Assembly (NCBI GenBank): GCA_029881995.1 | Contig: JAOULO010000040.1 | Span: 1 to 33,174, forward strand | From: Gammaproteobacteria bacterium | Lineage (GTDB): Bacteria > Pseudomonadota > Gammaproteobacteria > UBA6429 > Thiohalophilaceae | Direction: 5' to 3' | Length of the DNA stretch: 33,174 bases | Part shown: positions 2,051-23,341 of the stretch, piece by piece | Layout: every line of letters begins with the position of its first letter | Numbering within the stretch: the first letter of the stretch is position 1 | Notes under the pieces: generated by a model | What the model was told of the DNA's origin: nothing | Databases searched by the model: none | What the model saw: the letters and a program-made list of their open reading frames with translations, nothing else | Program-made: the position numbers and the translations under genes

Positions 2051-4828
2051 CTAGATTTTACCGCATACCTCTCCTACTCCAGCAGGAATTGTTATGCATG
2101 CCTTAACACCACTTGCTGAGGCCTTCACCTGACCACCGCCTAAGGTTTGGCAATTACTATTGTGGCAGTATTCACCGCTTACGGTACCACCTAAACCACT
2201 GCTACCTATCTTCAAATCGACAACGGCCTTAACGTCACCCAGTGAAATGTCAATGTTTGTTGTCTTATTGCATCCCTTTGCGATATTACAGCTTTTAGGG
2301 ACACTACAGGTGTTAGCTACTTTGCAAGAATTAGCTATCTTACAGGTTTTAGCTCCGCCAATTAAATTAATACCACATTCAAAAATACTGGTAATAGTTT
2401 TATAACCACAGATCGCACCATCGGTAATGGTTTTGGTGCCACAGATGGCCGCATCTTTGACAGTGTCTACGCCGCATTTGGCTGCACTTGTAACCTTGTC
2501 ATAACCACAATATGCACCGTCTACAACCCACTCAAGCACTTGCTCAACACCACTGACTGGGATGGTAAGTTCGGTACGGCCTCTTAGATCCACACCGCTT
2601 GCATCAATGTCACCAGACATACTGACACGAGAGATTGGAGTGACAAAGCTACCATTGGCGCTTAAGCCACTGGTGTCAATTGTTACACCGCTATCTTCAA
2701 GACCAACACCTGCAATACTCATGTTTCCGTGCAAACCTATCATCCAATCACTTGGATCACCGGTAAAGCGTGCTGTGAGGTCTGCACTTCCACCCAAATC
2801 GATTGCCGGATGAATATTCGCGCTTGTTTTCGCTGTCAGCTTAAAACCAGTGCTATCAATGTTTAATGTGCCTTCACTGGCAGCCAGATCATTAAGTGTA
2901 ATCCCAACCAGGTCACTCAGGTTCGAGGCATTCAAGTTATACTCACCTTCACCTTTCAAGTAAGATTTTTTGATATCACTACTGATCAGACCCGCCATTT
3001 TCACATTGCTTGAAGGCTGGATAGGCACCAACTCCTGAGGAATAAAGCTGGTGTCAGGGTCTAATTCACCACTGATGTATGCATTCTGAACATCATTTTG
3101 TACCTGTATACCAAGACTTGCATTGCCTAGTGGAAAACCAAAGCTGAAGAACTTCAGGAAATCGACTGATACATTCAAGGTACCGTTGCCACCAAATTGC
3201 ATATCAGGATTCTGGTCGTTAAAGATCGTCGCACCATCTTTATCTGGGTCAAGGTTTGCTGCCAACACGCCATCAATCGACAGAGGCAGACGGGCCAATG
3301 GAATTTCACCCTGCAGATAAAGGTGTGCATCGAATGTACCAATATCGCCATCAATACCCCAGGTGGTCTCTGGTGCAAATGGAATATTACCCTGTAAAGA
3401 CATGCCGATACCTAAATCACTTACCCCGGCAACTTCATCCAGACCTGGCAGACTGCCTGTCAGGAAAAAGAAGGGGTCCAGGGGATCAAGCACGAAGGTA
3501 ATGGACTTGCCACCGGGTGCTTCGAATGAGATGGGGCCTGCACTTGCTTCAAAGCCAGCATTGAATTTGAAGAACAGGTATTGACGATTTGGTTTAAGAG
3601 GCGCTTCCAGCTCATCAAGGTTAACACCATAGTCCAAACCTACATCAGCCATGGCAGGTGTACCAATCTCGACACCTTCAAGCATTCCTACAGCAGGGAA
3701 AGGCACTTGTGCTGTACCACGTATACGCTCGATATCCGTCAAGTTGGCGCCATATTCAAATATCAGATTGGCTCCGAAGATGACGATATCGCCCATTGGT
3801 GATGCCAGCAACAGGTTACCTGTTACCTGAAGACCTGTGACATTTTGTCCATCGTCAAAGTTGCTAACATTTTCATGGCGAGCTTTGAATTCCAGGTCTC
3901 CGACTTTGATGATAAGGAAGTTTGAAGTGTCTTCTGCTTCACCATTTGCACAACCATTTGAACCCACTTTCTGTCCCGGTGAAGTTGAAGGACAAAGATC
4001 GACTGAGTTTTCAATACCGTCTCCGTCATCATCTGCAACTACATTGATATCGACAAACCATTCACTGCTTAGCGACTCTCCCGGAATAGAAACAGTCAAA
4101 CCTGTTCTGTAAGTTCCTCCCTGTTCAGCTTTGATGGTTTGGCTTACTGTGTAGGTATGCAAACCCGCTTCGACTTCAAGTGTTCCATTGTTATCTGAAG
4201 CCATGACCAGGCCGCTTTCTGCCGGTGTTTCTGTAAGGTCAACACTGAGTGAGGTTGACGCCCCGTTTAAGATGCTGAAGGTATAAACCACATCGCGACT
4301 CTCACCGACTGTCATGCGTAATTTAGTGGCATCAGACTTCAGTTGCAGATTGGTGGTTTGCTCATACTCAAATTGCCATTTCAAATCTTCGACATGAAAT
4401 GGCTCATCGATTTTCTGTTGCAGAATGAAAGTATCGCTACTCTTGGTTGAGGAATTGGACTTTACATCATCAAAGACCAGGTCTTCATCAGTAGAGAGGA
4501 TATTTGCAGGTGGATTACTCAGTCTGGCGACGACCTGCTTCTGATCCATGGAAAAATTAACCAGCCTGGCGCTGTAGGTATATTCCACCGTAGTGCTGTC
4601 GATTTTCTTGCTGCTGACGATGACATAATCAGTGATGGTGTGGGTTGACGCCAGGCTGCTCAAGGTTTCTGGTGCGCCGCTTGACTGTTCATTGTTGGTA
4701 GTGTCATCCGACTCACCGGAGCCTGAGCCGCCCCCTCCGCCGCCACCACTACCGCAGGCACTTAGAGTTAGAGCACCGGCTAAAACCCATGCCGCACGTC
4801 GTGTAAAACGCTTGTTGAAATGTTTCAT
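2051..4828 (-). CDS. Large secreted lipoprotein with TSP3-like motif and C-terminal Cys-repeat array
   Basis: The protein has 925 residues. A lipoprotein signal ends in LSAC (Cys25), followed by a flexible linker of Gly and Ser (26-40). Residues 60-265 look like beta-sandwich domains. Residues 266-293 (DDDGDGIENSVDLCP then GSNGC) are a thrombospondin type-3-like calcium-binding motif with two Cys. Residues 300-760 are long, beta-rich and mostly Cys-free, with many alternating hydrophobic strands. Residues 774-858 form five 11-residue and then five 6-residue units, each starting with Cys. The last 67 residues hold five more Cys. GGGAGT lies upstream of the ATG, supporting the start. It is probably anchored in the outer membrane. 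I do not recognise a family for the whole protein. It is monocistronic; the nearest minus-strand gene upstream ends at 5028 with its own hairpin. Confidence 0.85.
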   Translation of the reverse strand: MKHFNKRFTRRAAWVLAGALTLSACGSGGGGGGGSGSGESDDTTNNEQSSGAPETLSSLASTHTITDYVIVSSKKIDSTTVEYTYSARLVNFSMDQKQVVARLSNPPANILSTDEDLVFDDVKSNSSTKSSDTFILQQKIDEPFHVEDLKWQFEYEQTTNLQLKSDATKLRMTVGESRDVVYTFSILNGASTSLSVDLTETPAESGLVMASDNNGTLEVEAGLHTYTVSQTIKAEQGGTYRTGLTVSIPGESLSSEWFVDINVVADDDGDGIENSVDLCPSTSPGQKVGSNGCANGEAEDTSNFLIIKVGDLEFKARHENVSNFDDGQNVTGLQVTGNLLLASPMGDIVIFGANLIFEYGANLTDIERIRGTAQVPFPAVGMLEGVEIGTPAMADVGLDYGVNLDELEAPLKPNRQYLFFKFNAGFEASAGPISFEAPGGKSITFVLDPLDPFFFLTGSLPGLDEVAGVSDLGIGMSLQGNIPFAPETTWGIDGDIGTFDAHLYLQGEIPLARLPLSIDGVLAANLDPDKDGATIFNDQNPDMQFGGNGTLNVSVDFLKFFSFGFPLGNASLGIQVQNDVQNAYISGELDPDTSFIPQELVPIQPSSNVKMAGLISSDIKKSYLKGEGEYNLNASNLSDLVGITLNDLAASEGTLNIDSTGFKLTAKTSANIHPAIDLGGSADLTARFTGDPSDWMIGLHGNMSIAGVGLEDSGVTIDTSGLSANGSFVTPISRVSMSGDIDASGVDLRGRTELTIPVSGVEQVLEWVVDGAYCGYDKVTSAAKCGVDTVKDAAICGTKTITDGAICGYKTITSIFECGINLIGGAKTCKIANSCKVANTCSVPKSCNIAKGCNKTTNIDISLGDVKAVVDLKIGSSGLGGTVSGEYCHNSNCQTLGGGQVKASASGVKACITIPAGVGEVCGKI
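2255..2509 (-). repeat. Coding repeat array: five 11-residue then five 6-residue Cys-led units
   Basis: Residues 774-828 of the lipoprotein split into CGYDKVTSAAK, CGVDTVKDAAI, CGTKTITDGAI, CGYKTITSIFE and CGINLIGGAKT. Residues 829-858 split into CKIANS, CKVANT, CSVPKS, CNIAKG and CNKTTN. Each unit starts with Cys and the period changes abruptly from 11 to 6. The phasing is exact, with no insertions. Confidence 0.9.
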
Positions 4829-5406: not shown

Positions 5407-6306
5407 CTAGCTTTTAAAATGCAGAGGGAAAAACTTTGCTGTTGATTTCATGTATTTCTTATATTTGGCACCCAATTCTTTCATCAGGTGTTCTTCTTCA
5501 TGAGAAACACCAATGGCGATGTAGAGAGTCAGGCCGACAGCCATCAGCAGGTGACCCGCTGTCATGACAGGTGTGAACCAGACACCAATAAATATGCCTG
5601 TCATAATGGGATGACGAATGTATTTATAGAGTGAGTTCTGTTTGAATGGTACAGGCTTGTAGGCCTTGCCCTGGTAATTCATCCACACCTGACGCAGACC
5701 GAACAGATCGAAGTGGTCAATCAGGAATGATGAGTAAAGCACGATACCCCAACCTGCCAAACTGGCGATAACCAGCAGCTTAGACAGTAAAACATTCTCT
5801 GCCTGCCAGATAATCCCGGTCATGGGTTGCCATGCGAAACACATAACAAATGTAATGATGCCTATCGCCAGCATATAGGTGCTTCGTTCAGCAACTTTGG
5901 GGATAAAGCTCAACATTTTCTTCTTGAAGGCAGGGTTTGTCATAATACCGTGCTGAATACCAAACAGGGCAATCAGGCCACTGTTGATCAGGGCTGCTAA
6001 AGGTACGTTACCTTGTACACCTGAATCGATTCCTTTCGGAACAAATGAATTAAGCAAGAATGCGATGAAATAAACCAGTGCCAGTAAGACAACGGCATAA
6101 CTGGCTACACCATATGAAAGTGTCATGAGTTTAGACATGCTTCCACTGGAGCCTTTTTTCGCCTTCTTTTTCGGAGACTTTTTCGGTGCAACTTTCGCCC
6201 TCTTGGCAGGCGCTTTTTTTGCACTTTTCTTCGAAGTCTTTTTTGACGTTTTTTTCGACGTCTTCTTCGAAGCCTTTTTCTTGGTCTTTCTCACAACTTT
6301 TGCCAT
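5407..6306 (-). CDS. mddA: MddA/NnrU-type membrane S-methyltransferase with histone-H1-like N-terminal tail
   Basis: The protein has 299 residues. Residues 57-299 form a multi-span membrane protein with signatures of methanethiol S-methyltransferase MddA and its isoprenylcysteine-methyltransferase-like relatives: VPKGIDSG (89-96), IQHGIMTNPAFK (117-128), ERSTY (140-144), HFDLFGLRQVW (198-208), RHP (231-233) and a C-terminal EEEH. MddA transfers a methyl group from S-adenosylmethionine to methanethiol, giving dimethyl sulfide. Residues 1-56 are a soluble tail of KKxS/T and KKAP repeats, nearly half Lys, resembling eukaryotic H1 or bacterial Hc1 tails; this is not part of the family. ATG at 6306 has GGTGAAG upstream. 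An internal ATG at 6138 (Met57) would give the bare enzyme, but its only SD-like bases (GGAAG) are too close. The substrate is inferred and other thiols remain possible. Confidence 0.78.
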   Translation of the reverse strand: MAKVVRKTKKKASKKTSKKTSKKTSKKSAKKAPAKRAKVAPKKSPKKKAKKGSSGSMSKLMTLSYGVASYAVVLLALVYFIAFLLNSFVPKGIDSGVQGNVPLAALINSGLIALFGIQHGIMTNPAFKKKMLSFIPKVAERSTYMLAIGIITFVMCFAWQPMTGIIWQAENVLLSKLLVIASLAGWGIVLYSSFLIDHFDLFGLRQVWMNYQGKAYKPVPFKQNSLYKYIRHPIMTGIFIGVWFTPVMTAGHLLMAVGLTLYIAIGVSHEEEHLMKELGAKYKKYMKSTAKFFPLHFKS

Positions 6307-9057: not shown

Positions 9058-9107
9058 AGCGCGTTTGATTTAATTTGGATGAATCCACAGGCAGGAGAAT
9101 CGGAACC

Positions 9108-9722
9108 ATGGCCGCTAAAAAGAAAACCGCGAAGAAAAAAACTACCGCCAAGAAAAAAACCACGGCGAAGAAGACGGCAAAGAAAAAAACTGCTGCAAAA
9201 AAAGCTGTGGTAAAGAAGAAAGTAGCGAAAAAAGCTGCTGCCAATAAAACGACCCCGGCAAAAAAAGCAGCAGTGAAAAAGAAAACCTCTGCTAAAAAAT
9301 CGAGCTCAAAATCAGAAGCCGGTCAATTTACTCCCTATACAACAAAGAAAGGCGAAGACTATATGAATGAAGCCCAGACCGCTCATTTCCGTGAAATTTT
9401 GCAGAACTGGAAACGTGAGCTGATGGAAGAAGTGGATCGCACTGTGCACCACATGCAGGATGAAGCAGCAAATTTCCCTGATCCCAATGATCGGGCTACT
9501 CAGGAATCTGAATTTACCATGGAACTGCGTACCCGCGATCGCGAACGCAAACTCATCAAGAAAATAGACGAATCACTGGATAATCTGGAAAACGGAGATT
9601 ACGGTTACTGTGAACAATGTGGTGTGGAGATTGGCGTGCAACGTCTGGAGGCCCGCCCAACAGCAAACCTCTGTATTGACTGTAAGAGTCTGGATGAAAT
9701 CCGCGAAAAACAACGTCTGTAA
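9108..9722 (+). CDS. dksA: RNA polymerase-binding regulator DksA with Lys/Ala-rich N-terminal tail
   Basis: The protein has 204 residues, against about 150 in E. coli. Residues 82-204 are canonical Dks[10 protein letters not shown], a coiled coil, the tip motif DPNDRA with Asp125, Asp128 and Ala130 (equivalents of E. coli D71, D74, A76) and a zinc site C168xxC171...C189xxC192. It should enter the RNA polymerase secondary channel and, with ppGpp, repress rRNA-type and activate amino-acid promoters. Residues 1-70 replace the usual short N-terminus with [10 protein letters not shown] repeats, highly basic and histone-H1-like. ATG at 9108 is chosen because AGGAG lies 10 bases upstream; an in-frame TTG at 9075 adds 11 poor residues. 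It converges on the next gene with 9 bases between stops. gluQ, its neighbour in E. coli, lies 1.1 kb downstream. Confidence 0.95.
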
Positions 9723-21220: not shown

Positions 21221-23341
21221 ATGAATAAGTTAGCTTATTTATTAATGGCTATACTATTCTCGGCCGCTTCGCTGGTACATGCAGCAGCATGCCCGACGGC
21301 CAACCAGGCCACTGAACCACAGTTGCTTCAGTGGACACATCATCCAGCAGCGAATGGTACTGAAGAGTACTGGAGTGGCGTGCTTGAAATGGGTGAAGCC
21401 AGCTTTATCGTTAATGGCGAAACTCTGACAACGCGGGCCTATCGGCAGGAAGGTGGACAATACAGTATCCCGGGACCAACCGTTGTAATGGTACCAGGAA
21501 AAAAATATGTCCTTACCTTCAGAAACCTGCTGCCCTATGAAGCCCCGGCTGCAGTCCACAATGACTTCAAAGATCCAAACATCTCTAATCTGCATACACA
21601 CGGTGTACATATTTCTCCTGAGAACCCATCCGATGAAGTAACACGTGTGATCGAGGGTGGCTTTGCCGGCGACTATGTGTATGACATTGGAGCAGACCAC
21701 ATGGGAGGCACTTTCTGGTATCACGCTCATCACCATGGCTCAACCTATCTCCAGGCTGCTGGCGGTGCATTTGGCCTGATGATTATCAGTGATGAACTGG
21801 ATCAGATCCCGGCCACTGTTCGAAATATGACAGAACAGCATGTAGTGCTGGGTTATCTTGATCCAAATGCCCGAGGAATTGGTGGTGACACTCTGATAAG
21901 CGGTACTCTCGGTCCAACATGGACTGTCAATGGTACTGTCAACGGTGATCTGTGTATCCCACCCAATACCTGGCAACACTGGCGTGTCCTAGTGGCTAAC
22001 CGTGATGGTAAGCTACGTGACCTGACTGTAGGAGACCAATGTGAGGTCGCGCTGATGGCACGTGATGGTGTCTGGCGTACAGTTGTTCCAAAGGCACTGA
22101 CTGGCAATACTATTGGGCTAACAGGTGCATCACGTGCTGATCTTGCTATTCGTTGTAGTGCAAATTCAACTGTTAGTATCGGTAATGTCACTGTCGCCAA
22201 TATTAATGTTGATACAACGGCAGCGACTGATACATCGGTTCATCCTTATGATGGCGTTGAAGGTAAAACATGGGCTTCTGTTCGTCCTCCTTACCTGCGC
22301 GATCTAAGAACCAAACCCGTGGCTCGCCTGGAAACAATCAACATGGGTGCCAGAACTATCAATGGTAACAAGTTTGATATCAATGTACCTTTGTTTGAGC
22401 TTGCCACGAATGGTGTTCAGGAATGGGGAATTCAGGGAGCTCAAAATCATCCCTTCCATCTGCATGTCTACCACTTCCAGGTACAGCGTGACTGTGGCGA
22501 CTTTGAAGCGGGTGAATACTACGATACACTGGCAGCAAACTGTGATGTAAGGTTTGACCTGACAGCCGAGACAGCCTTCCGTGGCAAGACCATTATGCAC
22601 TGTCATATCCTTGATCACGAAGATCAGGGTGCCATGACCTATGCCAATGTACTTGGCGGTGCTGAGCCACCTACCTTCCCGGCAGATCCAAACAGGAGCT
22701 TTGCTATTCGTTATCCCATTGCAAGTGCACCAGCTACCCCTCCAATAGCACCAACACAGCTGAATGCACAGGCTTCTGGAACCAGCATTGCCCTAACCTG
22801 GCTGGATAACTCTAACGATGAGACTGGCTTCAATATTGAACGGTCTCTGGATGGCACTAACTTTGCCGTACTTACAACAGTGAATGCCAATACCATGGCT
22901 TATACAGACACAGGACTGTCAGCCAACACCACATATTCGTATCGTGTTAATGCATCTAACGATGCCGGTAACTCTGCCTACACCAATGTGGCAGGTGCTA
23001 CCACACAAGATGCACCTACAGTCACATCCATGCAGGTTGGTTCAGTGACTTTAACAACAACGAATGCTGGTGGTGGTAATAAAGTGGGTACCGCAACTGT
23101 TGTAATACTGGATAACCTGGGTAACCCGGTAGCCAATGCCATTGTGACAGGTGACTTCACCGGTGATATTACTGAAGCGGGAGCATCAGGACCTGCAACA
23201 GATACCGCAGGTAGTACGGTTATCAATACAACTGGAACAGCACGAGGTGGGGTAACACTTCAGTTCTGTGTAACCAGTGTGACTCACCCAACACTGCCAA
23301 CGTTTACCGCTGAACCTGGTTTACACTGTGGTAACATCTAA
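21221..23341 (+). CDS. Secreted multicopper oxidase with FN3 and Ig-like C-terminal domains
   Basis: The protein has 706 residues. The signal peptide is cleaved near VHA-AAC (residue 21). The oxidase part (about 35-480) has all four copper motifs: HTHG (125-128), WYHAHHHG (167-173), HPFHLH (410-415) and HCHILDHEDQGAM (460-472). His410, Cys461 and His466 form the type 1 site, and the other eight His the trinuclear site. The usual axial Met (first M of CueO GMM) is Ala471 here, with Met472 next to it. A fibronectin type III domain (about 508-597) and an Ig-like domain (600-706, with two Cys) follow, suggesting surface or matrix binding. It couples oxidation of a metal, phenol or other substrate to reduction of oxygen to water. 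The substrate is unknown. AGGAGG precedes the ATG. Confidence 0.92.
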   Translation: MNKLAYLLMAILFSAASLVHAAACPTANQATEPQLLQWTHHPAANGTEEYWSGVLEMGEASFIVNGETLTTRAYRQEGGQYSIPGPTVVMVPGKKYVLTFRNLLPYEAPAAVHNDFKDPNISNLHTHGVHISPENPSDEVTRVIEGGFAGDYVYDIGADHMGGTFWYHAHHHGSTYLQAAGGAFGLMIISDELDQIPATVRNMTEQHVVLGYLDPNARGIGGDTLISGTLGPTWTVNGTVNGDLCIPPNTWQHWRVLVANRDGKLRDLTVGDQCEVALMARDGVWRTVVPKALTGNTIGLTGASRADLAIRCSANSTVSIGNVTVANINVDTTAATDTSVHPYDGVEGKTWASVRPPYLRDLRTKPVARLETINMGARTINGNKFDINVPLFELATNGVQEWGIQGAQNHPFHLHVYHFQVQRDCGDFEAGEYYDTLAANCDVRFDLTAETAFRGKTIMHCHILDHEDQGAMTYANVLGGAEPPTFPADPNRSFAIRYPIASAPATPPIAPTQLNAQASGTSIALTWLDNSNDETGFNIERSLDGTNFAVLTTVNANTMAYTDTGLSANTTYSYRVNASNDAGNSAYTNVAGATTQDAPTVTSMQVGSVTLTTTNAGGGNKVGTATVVILDNLGNPVANAIVTGDFTGDITEAGASGPATDTAGSTVINTTGTARGGVTLQFCVTSVTHPTLPTFTAEPGLHCGNI

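Follow-up and report, generated by a model that had tools for sequence, protein, structure and literature searches.

A two-period cysteine array with matched repeat numbers in a gammaproteobacterial lipoprotein: a possible asymmetric disulfide ladder

Introduction

The window analysed here, the whole stretch of 33,174 nucleotides from a gammaproteobacterium, carries on its minus strand a gene for a 925-residue lipoprotein in which cysteines recur at every eleventh and then, without a gap, at every sixth residue. This raises the question of why one protein should hold two adjacent arrays of different period, and whether these are two structures or parts of one. We approached it through the array itself, its homologues, the number and conservation of its cysteines, and its predicted conformation.

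Results

A two-period cysteine array in a lipoprotein

The lipoprotein gene (positions 2051 to 4828, minus strand, as are all of its parts described below) is an open frame from an ATG, and its full-length homologues are 49–52% identical to it. The signal peptide and the site around Cys25 (LSAC-G), which we take to be a lipobox by the lipobox rule, occupy positions 4754 to 4828, and this cysteine is aligned in all eight full-length proteins, that of the window included. The residue that follows it is Gly in the window, G239, G341, and G415 and Asp in G100, G404, G405, G406, and G407. In E. coli, the residue after the lipobox Cys decides the membrane to which a lipoprotein is sorted, and by that rule the homologues could reside in different membranes. 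The best-modelled part of the protein is an all-beta domain at residues 63–156 (4361 to 4642), with AlphaFold2 pLDDT values of 69–86 over residues 61–150 and about 51 over residues 151–160. A motif resembling TSP3, of the calcium-loop type, lies at residues 266–293 (3950 to 4033) and contains Cys279 and Cys293; it scores 16.4 bits against Pfam TSP_3, below the gathering cut-off of 25 bits, and this stretch alone gives many weak matches in other genomes.

The 11-residue array (2345 to 2509) consists of five units that each start with Cys-Gly, the same number as in six other arrays, while three arrays have seven. Its cysteines (774, 785, 796, 807, and 818, spacing 11) lead directly into those at 829, 835, 841, 847, and 853 (spacing 6), and the only other cysteines of the protein are at residues 25, 279, 293, 888, 893, 911, and 922. 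An earlier note on this DNA had described a two-period array in which every unit opens with Cys, and this description is borne out, as are its five 11-residue units and ten cysteines. Its five 6-residue units prove to be four full ones (2273 to 2344), with the family consensus C-[SND]-[VI]-[AP]-[KRN]-[STG] read from this sequence and its homologues, followed by the lone Cys853 (2272 to 2270) and then the non-repeat CNKTTN, and the span is 80 residues (774–853) rather than the 85 claimed. Cys853, the tenth cysteine, is conserved in 10/10 arrays and would close the ladder proposed below. The C-terminal tail (2054 to 2269) holds four more cysteines (888, 893, 911, and 922) that are invariant in the alignment.

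Gly follows Cys in all 55 eleven-residue units of the family but not in the single 10-residue unit of G405; the commonest residues of the 11-mer are C-G-[YT]-[DKE]-[TW]-[VI]-T-[DS]-[AG]-A-I. The fifth 11-mer of the window protein, CGINLIGGAKT (2345 to 2377), is divergent, with 27% amino acid identity to every other 11-mer of the array, and forms a Gly-rich junction, the proposed hairpin turn, with two or three Gly within the last six residues of this unit in 10/10 sequences. None of 200,000 shuffles of residues 700–925 gave the array spacing and the analytic expectation is 1.9e-12 placements, both figures being for a spacing pattern picked post hoc; the spacing is also kept in homologues that are ~50–60% identical. 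At the DNA level, identity between units is 33–61% for the 11-mers and 50–67% for the 6-mers, and TRF reported only a weak 18-bp array in this region. Given this low identity between units, it looks like an old array under selection rather than a fresh DNA repeat.

A small family within the class

Outside the window, the family was found at 11 loci in 10 genomes, all of the window's class; with the window, this makes 11 genomes and 12 loci, G404 having two. The first relative, L004, from the MAG Gammaproteobacteria bacterium isolate HyVt-583, is identical as the reverse complement to L081, a piece of contig 125 of G404. A profile search of 369 genomes of the class placed the family in four of them (the window's own genome, G100, G239, and G341). 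By order, it was present in 8 of the 24 genomes in that of G100 (10 matched, of which G413 and G423 were left out as matching in the TSP3-like stretch only), in two of four in that of G239 (the other two matching only in this same stretch), and in one of 40 in the window's own order, its own genome alone. A single-protein search of 58 genomes of relatives returned the window's genome and one match of the TSP3-like kind.

Across 398 genomes of the phylum, the full-length profile gave 45 matches and, the window's own gene apart, those among the matches listed were short and lay around the TSP3-like stretch. The C-terminal profile, run on a draw of 398 genomes, recovered G239 together with two weak matches (G629 and G465), and a search of 360 genomes of the class recovered known members and two further weak matches (G188 and G389). 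An array protein was not evident at the G629 locus, and G465, G188, and G389 were dismissed from the match tables as weak. Members other than the window protein are 71–87% identical to one another over their full length. Arrays could be read in 10 loci, those of G407 and G415 running off the contig; the G412 gene is split over two contigs and was counted by its C-terminal piece.

Equal cysteine numbers in the two arrays

In every readable array (10/10, the window's included), the number of cysteines in the 11-residue array equals that in the 6-residue array, and no unequal pair was seen among these ten. Seven arrays are 5:5 (the window, G100, G406, G408, G404, its second copy L004, and G412) and three are 7:7 (G239, G341, and G405). 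The boundary cysteine of G405 is shifted, giving 10 + 7 residues in place of 11 + 6, and its count is still 7:7. One array directly follows the other and their units do not mix, so no single tandem duplication could add equally to both, and each change between five and seven requires a corresponding change in the partner array. The earlier note had seen two independent structures here, a period-11 helix or solenoid and a period-6 tight beta-turn ladder; the homologues suggest instead two arms of one structure.

All 17 cysteines of the window protein are invariant in 8/8 full-length proteins, its own included. Besides the lipobox Cys, each full-length protein has 16 or 20 cysteines, always an even number (setting aside Cys5 of G239, in an N-terminal extension with a doubtful start), and beyond the two units added per arm there is no extra cysteine in any of the eight. 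Because the number per array is odd, five or seven, pairing within arrays alone would leave one free cysteine in each, and oxidising all of them takes at least one bond that runs out of each array. As many bonds between the arrays as there are cysteines in either is the simplest complete pairing scheme.

We favour a structure in which each cysteine of the 11-residue array would bond one cysteine of the 6-residue array, 1:1, within one chain. The arms would run antiparallel around the Gly-rich junction, with predicted pairs 774–853, 785–847, 796–841, 807–835, and 818–829 in the window protein, so that each rung would take up 11 residues on one arm and six on the other. Such a ladder would project as an insert from the C-terminal beta-rich region of the membrane-anchored lipoprotein as a stiff, protease-resistant spike, and its length would change only by equal additions of units to both arms. 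On the sequences at hand, we regard an intramolecular antiparallel disulfide hairpin of this kind, with its bonds, partners, direction, and role all inferred, as having about an even chance of being correct; the role as a rigid spike is a guess.

One or two expansions from five to seven

The only states seen are 5:5 and 7:7, and the number of independent changes between them is one or two. Over the full length, G405 (7:7) is 85–87% identical to the 5:5 members G406 and G408 and 74% identical to the 7:7 members G239 and G341. Within its 11-residue array, units 2–3 and units 4–5 share 88% DNA identity. Units 2–3 of the seven 5:5 sequences reach at most 83% identity to these pairs, and no pair of units in G239 or G341 exceeds 73%. 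The added 11-mers of G405 thus look like a duplication of its own, and there may have been two origins of the 7:7 form, each by an independent matched expansion. An identity of 88% is unexceptional, as units 2–3 are 77–94% identical between other pairs of species, and homogenisation within the G405 array could mimic a recent duplication. In trees of the gene without the array, a clade of G405, G239, and G341 was rejected (p = 0.0145), while a clade that also includes G407, the sister of G405 whose array runs off the contig, was not (p = 0.405). The tree of the gene without the array neither proves nor excludes two independent expansions.

Predicted conformation of the arms

AlphaFold2 modelling of the C-terminal domain with 10 sequences gave a pLDDT of 55.6, too poor to judge the array. 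In this model, predicted strands flank the array on both sides, with nothing reliable inside it, and the tail carries six predicted strands, the first with pLDDT below 50 and the later blocks at 61–79. The full protein, modelled with 12 sequences, reached a pLDDT of 42.4 and was best at residues 61–150; Foldseek found no match to this full-length model in the PDB at E ≤ 0.001. Over the array, the secondary-structure string shows no uninterrupted helix or strand.

Using textbook rises, one unit advances 16.5 Å in an alpha-helical 11-residue arm, 18.6 Å in a polyproline-like and 19.8 Å in a beta 6-residue arm, and 22 Å in a 3-10 helix; among the regular conformations compared, only a helical 11-residue arm and an extended 6-residue arm advance equally within 20%. 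The hydrophobic moment of the 11-mer is 0.80 near 98 degrees, about where a hendecad coiled coil expects it, and 0.85 at 66 degrees. By residue propensities, strand lies slightly above helix for the 11-mers, which agrees poorly with a helical 11-residue arm.

The arrays could also fold separately, without pairing, the period-11 part a helix or solenoid and the period-6 part a stack like that of a left-handed beta helix with its cysteines inward, in which case the equal counts would be coincidence or shared ancestry. Left-handed beta helices are built from many hexads of the pattern [LIV]-[GAED]-x2-[STAV]-x, with which the 6-mer is compatible when its third residue is taken as the start, [VI]-[AP]-[KRN]-[STG]-C-x, and the hydrophobicity of the 6-mer has its peak at 120 degrees; the independent changes in count are also few. 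The array has only four to six hexads, however, enough for no more than two helical turns, and at E ≤ 1 no Pfam model, the hexapeptide models of left-handed beta helices included, matched it in any of 10 members. Nor would separate folds predict equal counts, and an odd number leaves cysteines unpaired in each. We consider this reading unlikely.

Equal counts are equally predicted if the 11-residue array of one chain zips to the 6-residue array of the next, forming a covalent dimer or fibre. The Gly-rich junction and the low-confidence strands that flank the insert fit a hairpin better, and we consider bonding between chains quite unlikely.

Selection on the array and the state of its cysteines

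A third alternative is that the facing cysteine pairs stay reduced and that every rung holds one soft metal ion, so that the array would serve as a rod for storing or sensing metal. The two cysteines of a rung would suit a linear site of the Cu(I) type, a CxxCxxCC protein (1331 to 1939, PF03692) is the closest metal-related neighbour, and 17 kb away is a frame (21221 to 23341, plus strand) that is presumably multicopper-oxidase-like by its His motifs. Against this, the 10 arrays contain neither Met nor CxxC and just two of them contain His, no metal transporter was recognised by eye beside the gene, and an exported protein with an even cysteine count is the usual setting for disulfides. We hold the metal rod to be very unlikely. 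Metal or covalent cofactors on the array cysteines, both options in the earlier note, gain no support from these results.

The array is under purifying selection, with dN/dS of 0.08–0.13 in four pairs of homologues. Its synonymous divergence in these pairs is roughly double the value for the remaining gene (0.75–1.52 compared to 0.31–0.71), possibly owing to exchange between units or to misaligned units. Between G239 and G341, dN is 0.141 in the array and 0.061 in the rest, a faster change of the protein sequence that counts against the ladder. Neutral repeat slippage of no structural meaning can hardly be the explanation, for although array lengths did change and a doubled synonymous divergence is expected from unequal exchange, the cysteines are invariant, dN/dS is low, and array length is the same between homologues only ~50% identical.

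The disulfide-ladder option of the earlier note gains indirect support from the equal counts, 5:5 and 7:7, together with the odd number per array, the even total of cysteines, and export of the protein. The invariant cysteines, the Gly-rich junction, the Gly after Cys, and purifying selection also speak for the proposed ladder. DsbB (PF02600) was found in three of the seven genomes tested (the window's, G239, and G341) and not in the other four, G100, G405, G406, and G408, all of the G100 group. Its presence in the former speaks for the ladder and the lack of a match in the latter against it, so far as this one oxidase can tell.

Database searches

No convincing match to the array was found in Pfam, NCBIfam, or the PDB. 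A sequence search of the PDB with the single protein gave 17 matches at E ≤ 1, the best at 0.061, which were judged chance, three kallikrein-7 chains among them (E 0.62–0.66) aligning to residues 764–876; the C-terminal profile had no PDB match at E ≤ 5. In PHROGs, one family of unknown function matched (E 8e-5) at residues 14–65, the signal and linker region. RalR in NCBIfam (E 0.0016, in one of 10 members) was likewise judged chance, and TIGR04201 was not among the matches of 10 members at E ≤ 1 in NCBIfam release 20.0, a release that may not hold that model. The claim of the earlier note that no known family has this design thus stands for the array in Pfam, NCBIfam, PHROGs, and the PDB, the remaining matches being judged chance or lying elsewhere in the protein.

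Among plasmids and phages, tblastn with the full protein found no relatives, and the best matches of array-only queries (E 0.3, 0.8, and 0.1) were judged chance. IMG/VR also held no relatives of the lipoprotein. The pure spacing pattern occurred there in at least 120 stretches; of the 80 loci among the matches listed, 55 contain a stop-free stretch bearing four CG at spacing 11, and by eye none was a family member.

Gene neighbourhood

The lipoprotein gene has a histidine kinase gene and a response-regulator gene close by in G100, G404, G405, G408, G239, and G341 (the G404 regulator by motif), and both were identified by motif in G406, with the kinase in two frames; G415 has a kinase at its contig end. 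These neighbours (at L013, L014, L015, L073, L074, L075, and L076) thus accompany the lipoprotein gene in two distant groups, in differing arrangements, and by BLAST the kinases of the G100 and G239 groups are 39–41% and the regulators 34–37% identical. By Pfam, the kinase of the G341 pair is a hybrid kinase and its regulator is of the LuxR type. In the ORF list of the window, no such pair was seen by eye, and the best kinase relatives in the window's genome, 35–36% identical, are on other contigs. A regulatory link of the pair to the lipoprotein is possible.

Other neighbours differ between genomes. In G406, the lipoprotein homologue is followed immediately downstream, with no change of strand, by a gene that matches Pfam Thiol_cytolysin (PF01289, E 6e-36; L073:3206-4861, minus). 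G408 has, beside the lipoprotein homologue and between it and the kinase/regulator genes, a gene for a 1073-aa protein with matches to FG-GAP, PKD, and, weakly, TSP3_bac (L074:4115-7336, plus), and G415 has a gene of similar size (L078:1341-4511). In the window, two frames encode Lys-rich repetitive N-terminal ends, one membrane-protein-like with no Pfam match at E ≤ 0.01 (5407 to 6306, minus) and one that we take to be DksA-like (9075 to 9722, plus).

Discussion

The equal cysteine numbers in 10/10 arrays favour the ladder, a kind of structure already known from other proteins. The cystine ladder of theta-defensins has three parallel disulfide rungs between two antiparallel strands (PMC10096437) in an 18-residue cyclic peptide (PMC6327110). 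The lipoprotein array is similar in having equal numbers of cysteines on two potentially facing segments and differs in its five to seven proposed rungs, its two periods, and its position as an internal segment of a 925-aa lipoprotein. It is not a head-to-tail cyclic peptide and was not counted as a theta-defensin-type member, yet it may work like a cystine ladder. We know of no sequence relation between the two.

Other systems share single elements with the array. HAP2 of green algae, a large surface protein, has a loop with a cystine-ladder-like module of three parallel disulfides (PMC6327110); that loop is eukaryotic, has 37 residues, and is not called a tandem repeat there. In alpha-hairpinins, two disulfides close a hairpin (PMC11591084), though these are short helix-loop-helix peptides with four cysteines (six in one figure) and without arrays of different period. 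The myxobacterial surface protein TraA carries a Cys-rich tandem repeat (TIGR04201) that has been suggested to be a rigid stalk (PMC3325183), and it differs from the lipoprotein array in having three invariant and two less conserved cysteines per unit. Disulfide ladders and Cys-rich bacterial repeats suggested as stalks are thus already known, and what appears new relative to these sources is rails of different period with a matched, variable number. Two-period cysteine arrays, or rails with matched and variable repeat number, were not found in the portions of the open-licence literature that were searched.

That the arrays form a length-adjustable asymmetric disulfide zipper, in which tandem arrays of different period are locked 1:1 and selection couples their repeat numbers, is a tentative proposal that we put at somewhat short of even. 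If the pairing is true, this lipoprotein would hold a natural ladder with a different number of residues per rung on each rail and with both rails changing length together in evolution, a combination known to us from no described family. It would then offer a simple test case for the co-evolution of coupled repeats and a template for rigid protein rods of genetically tunable length.
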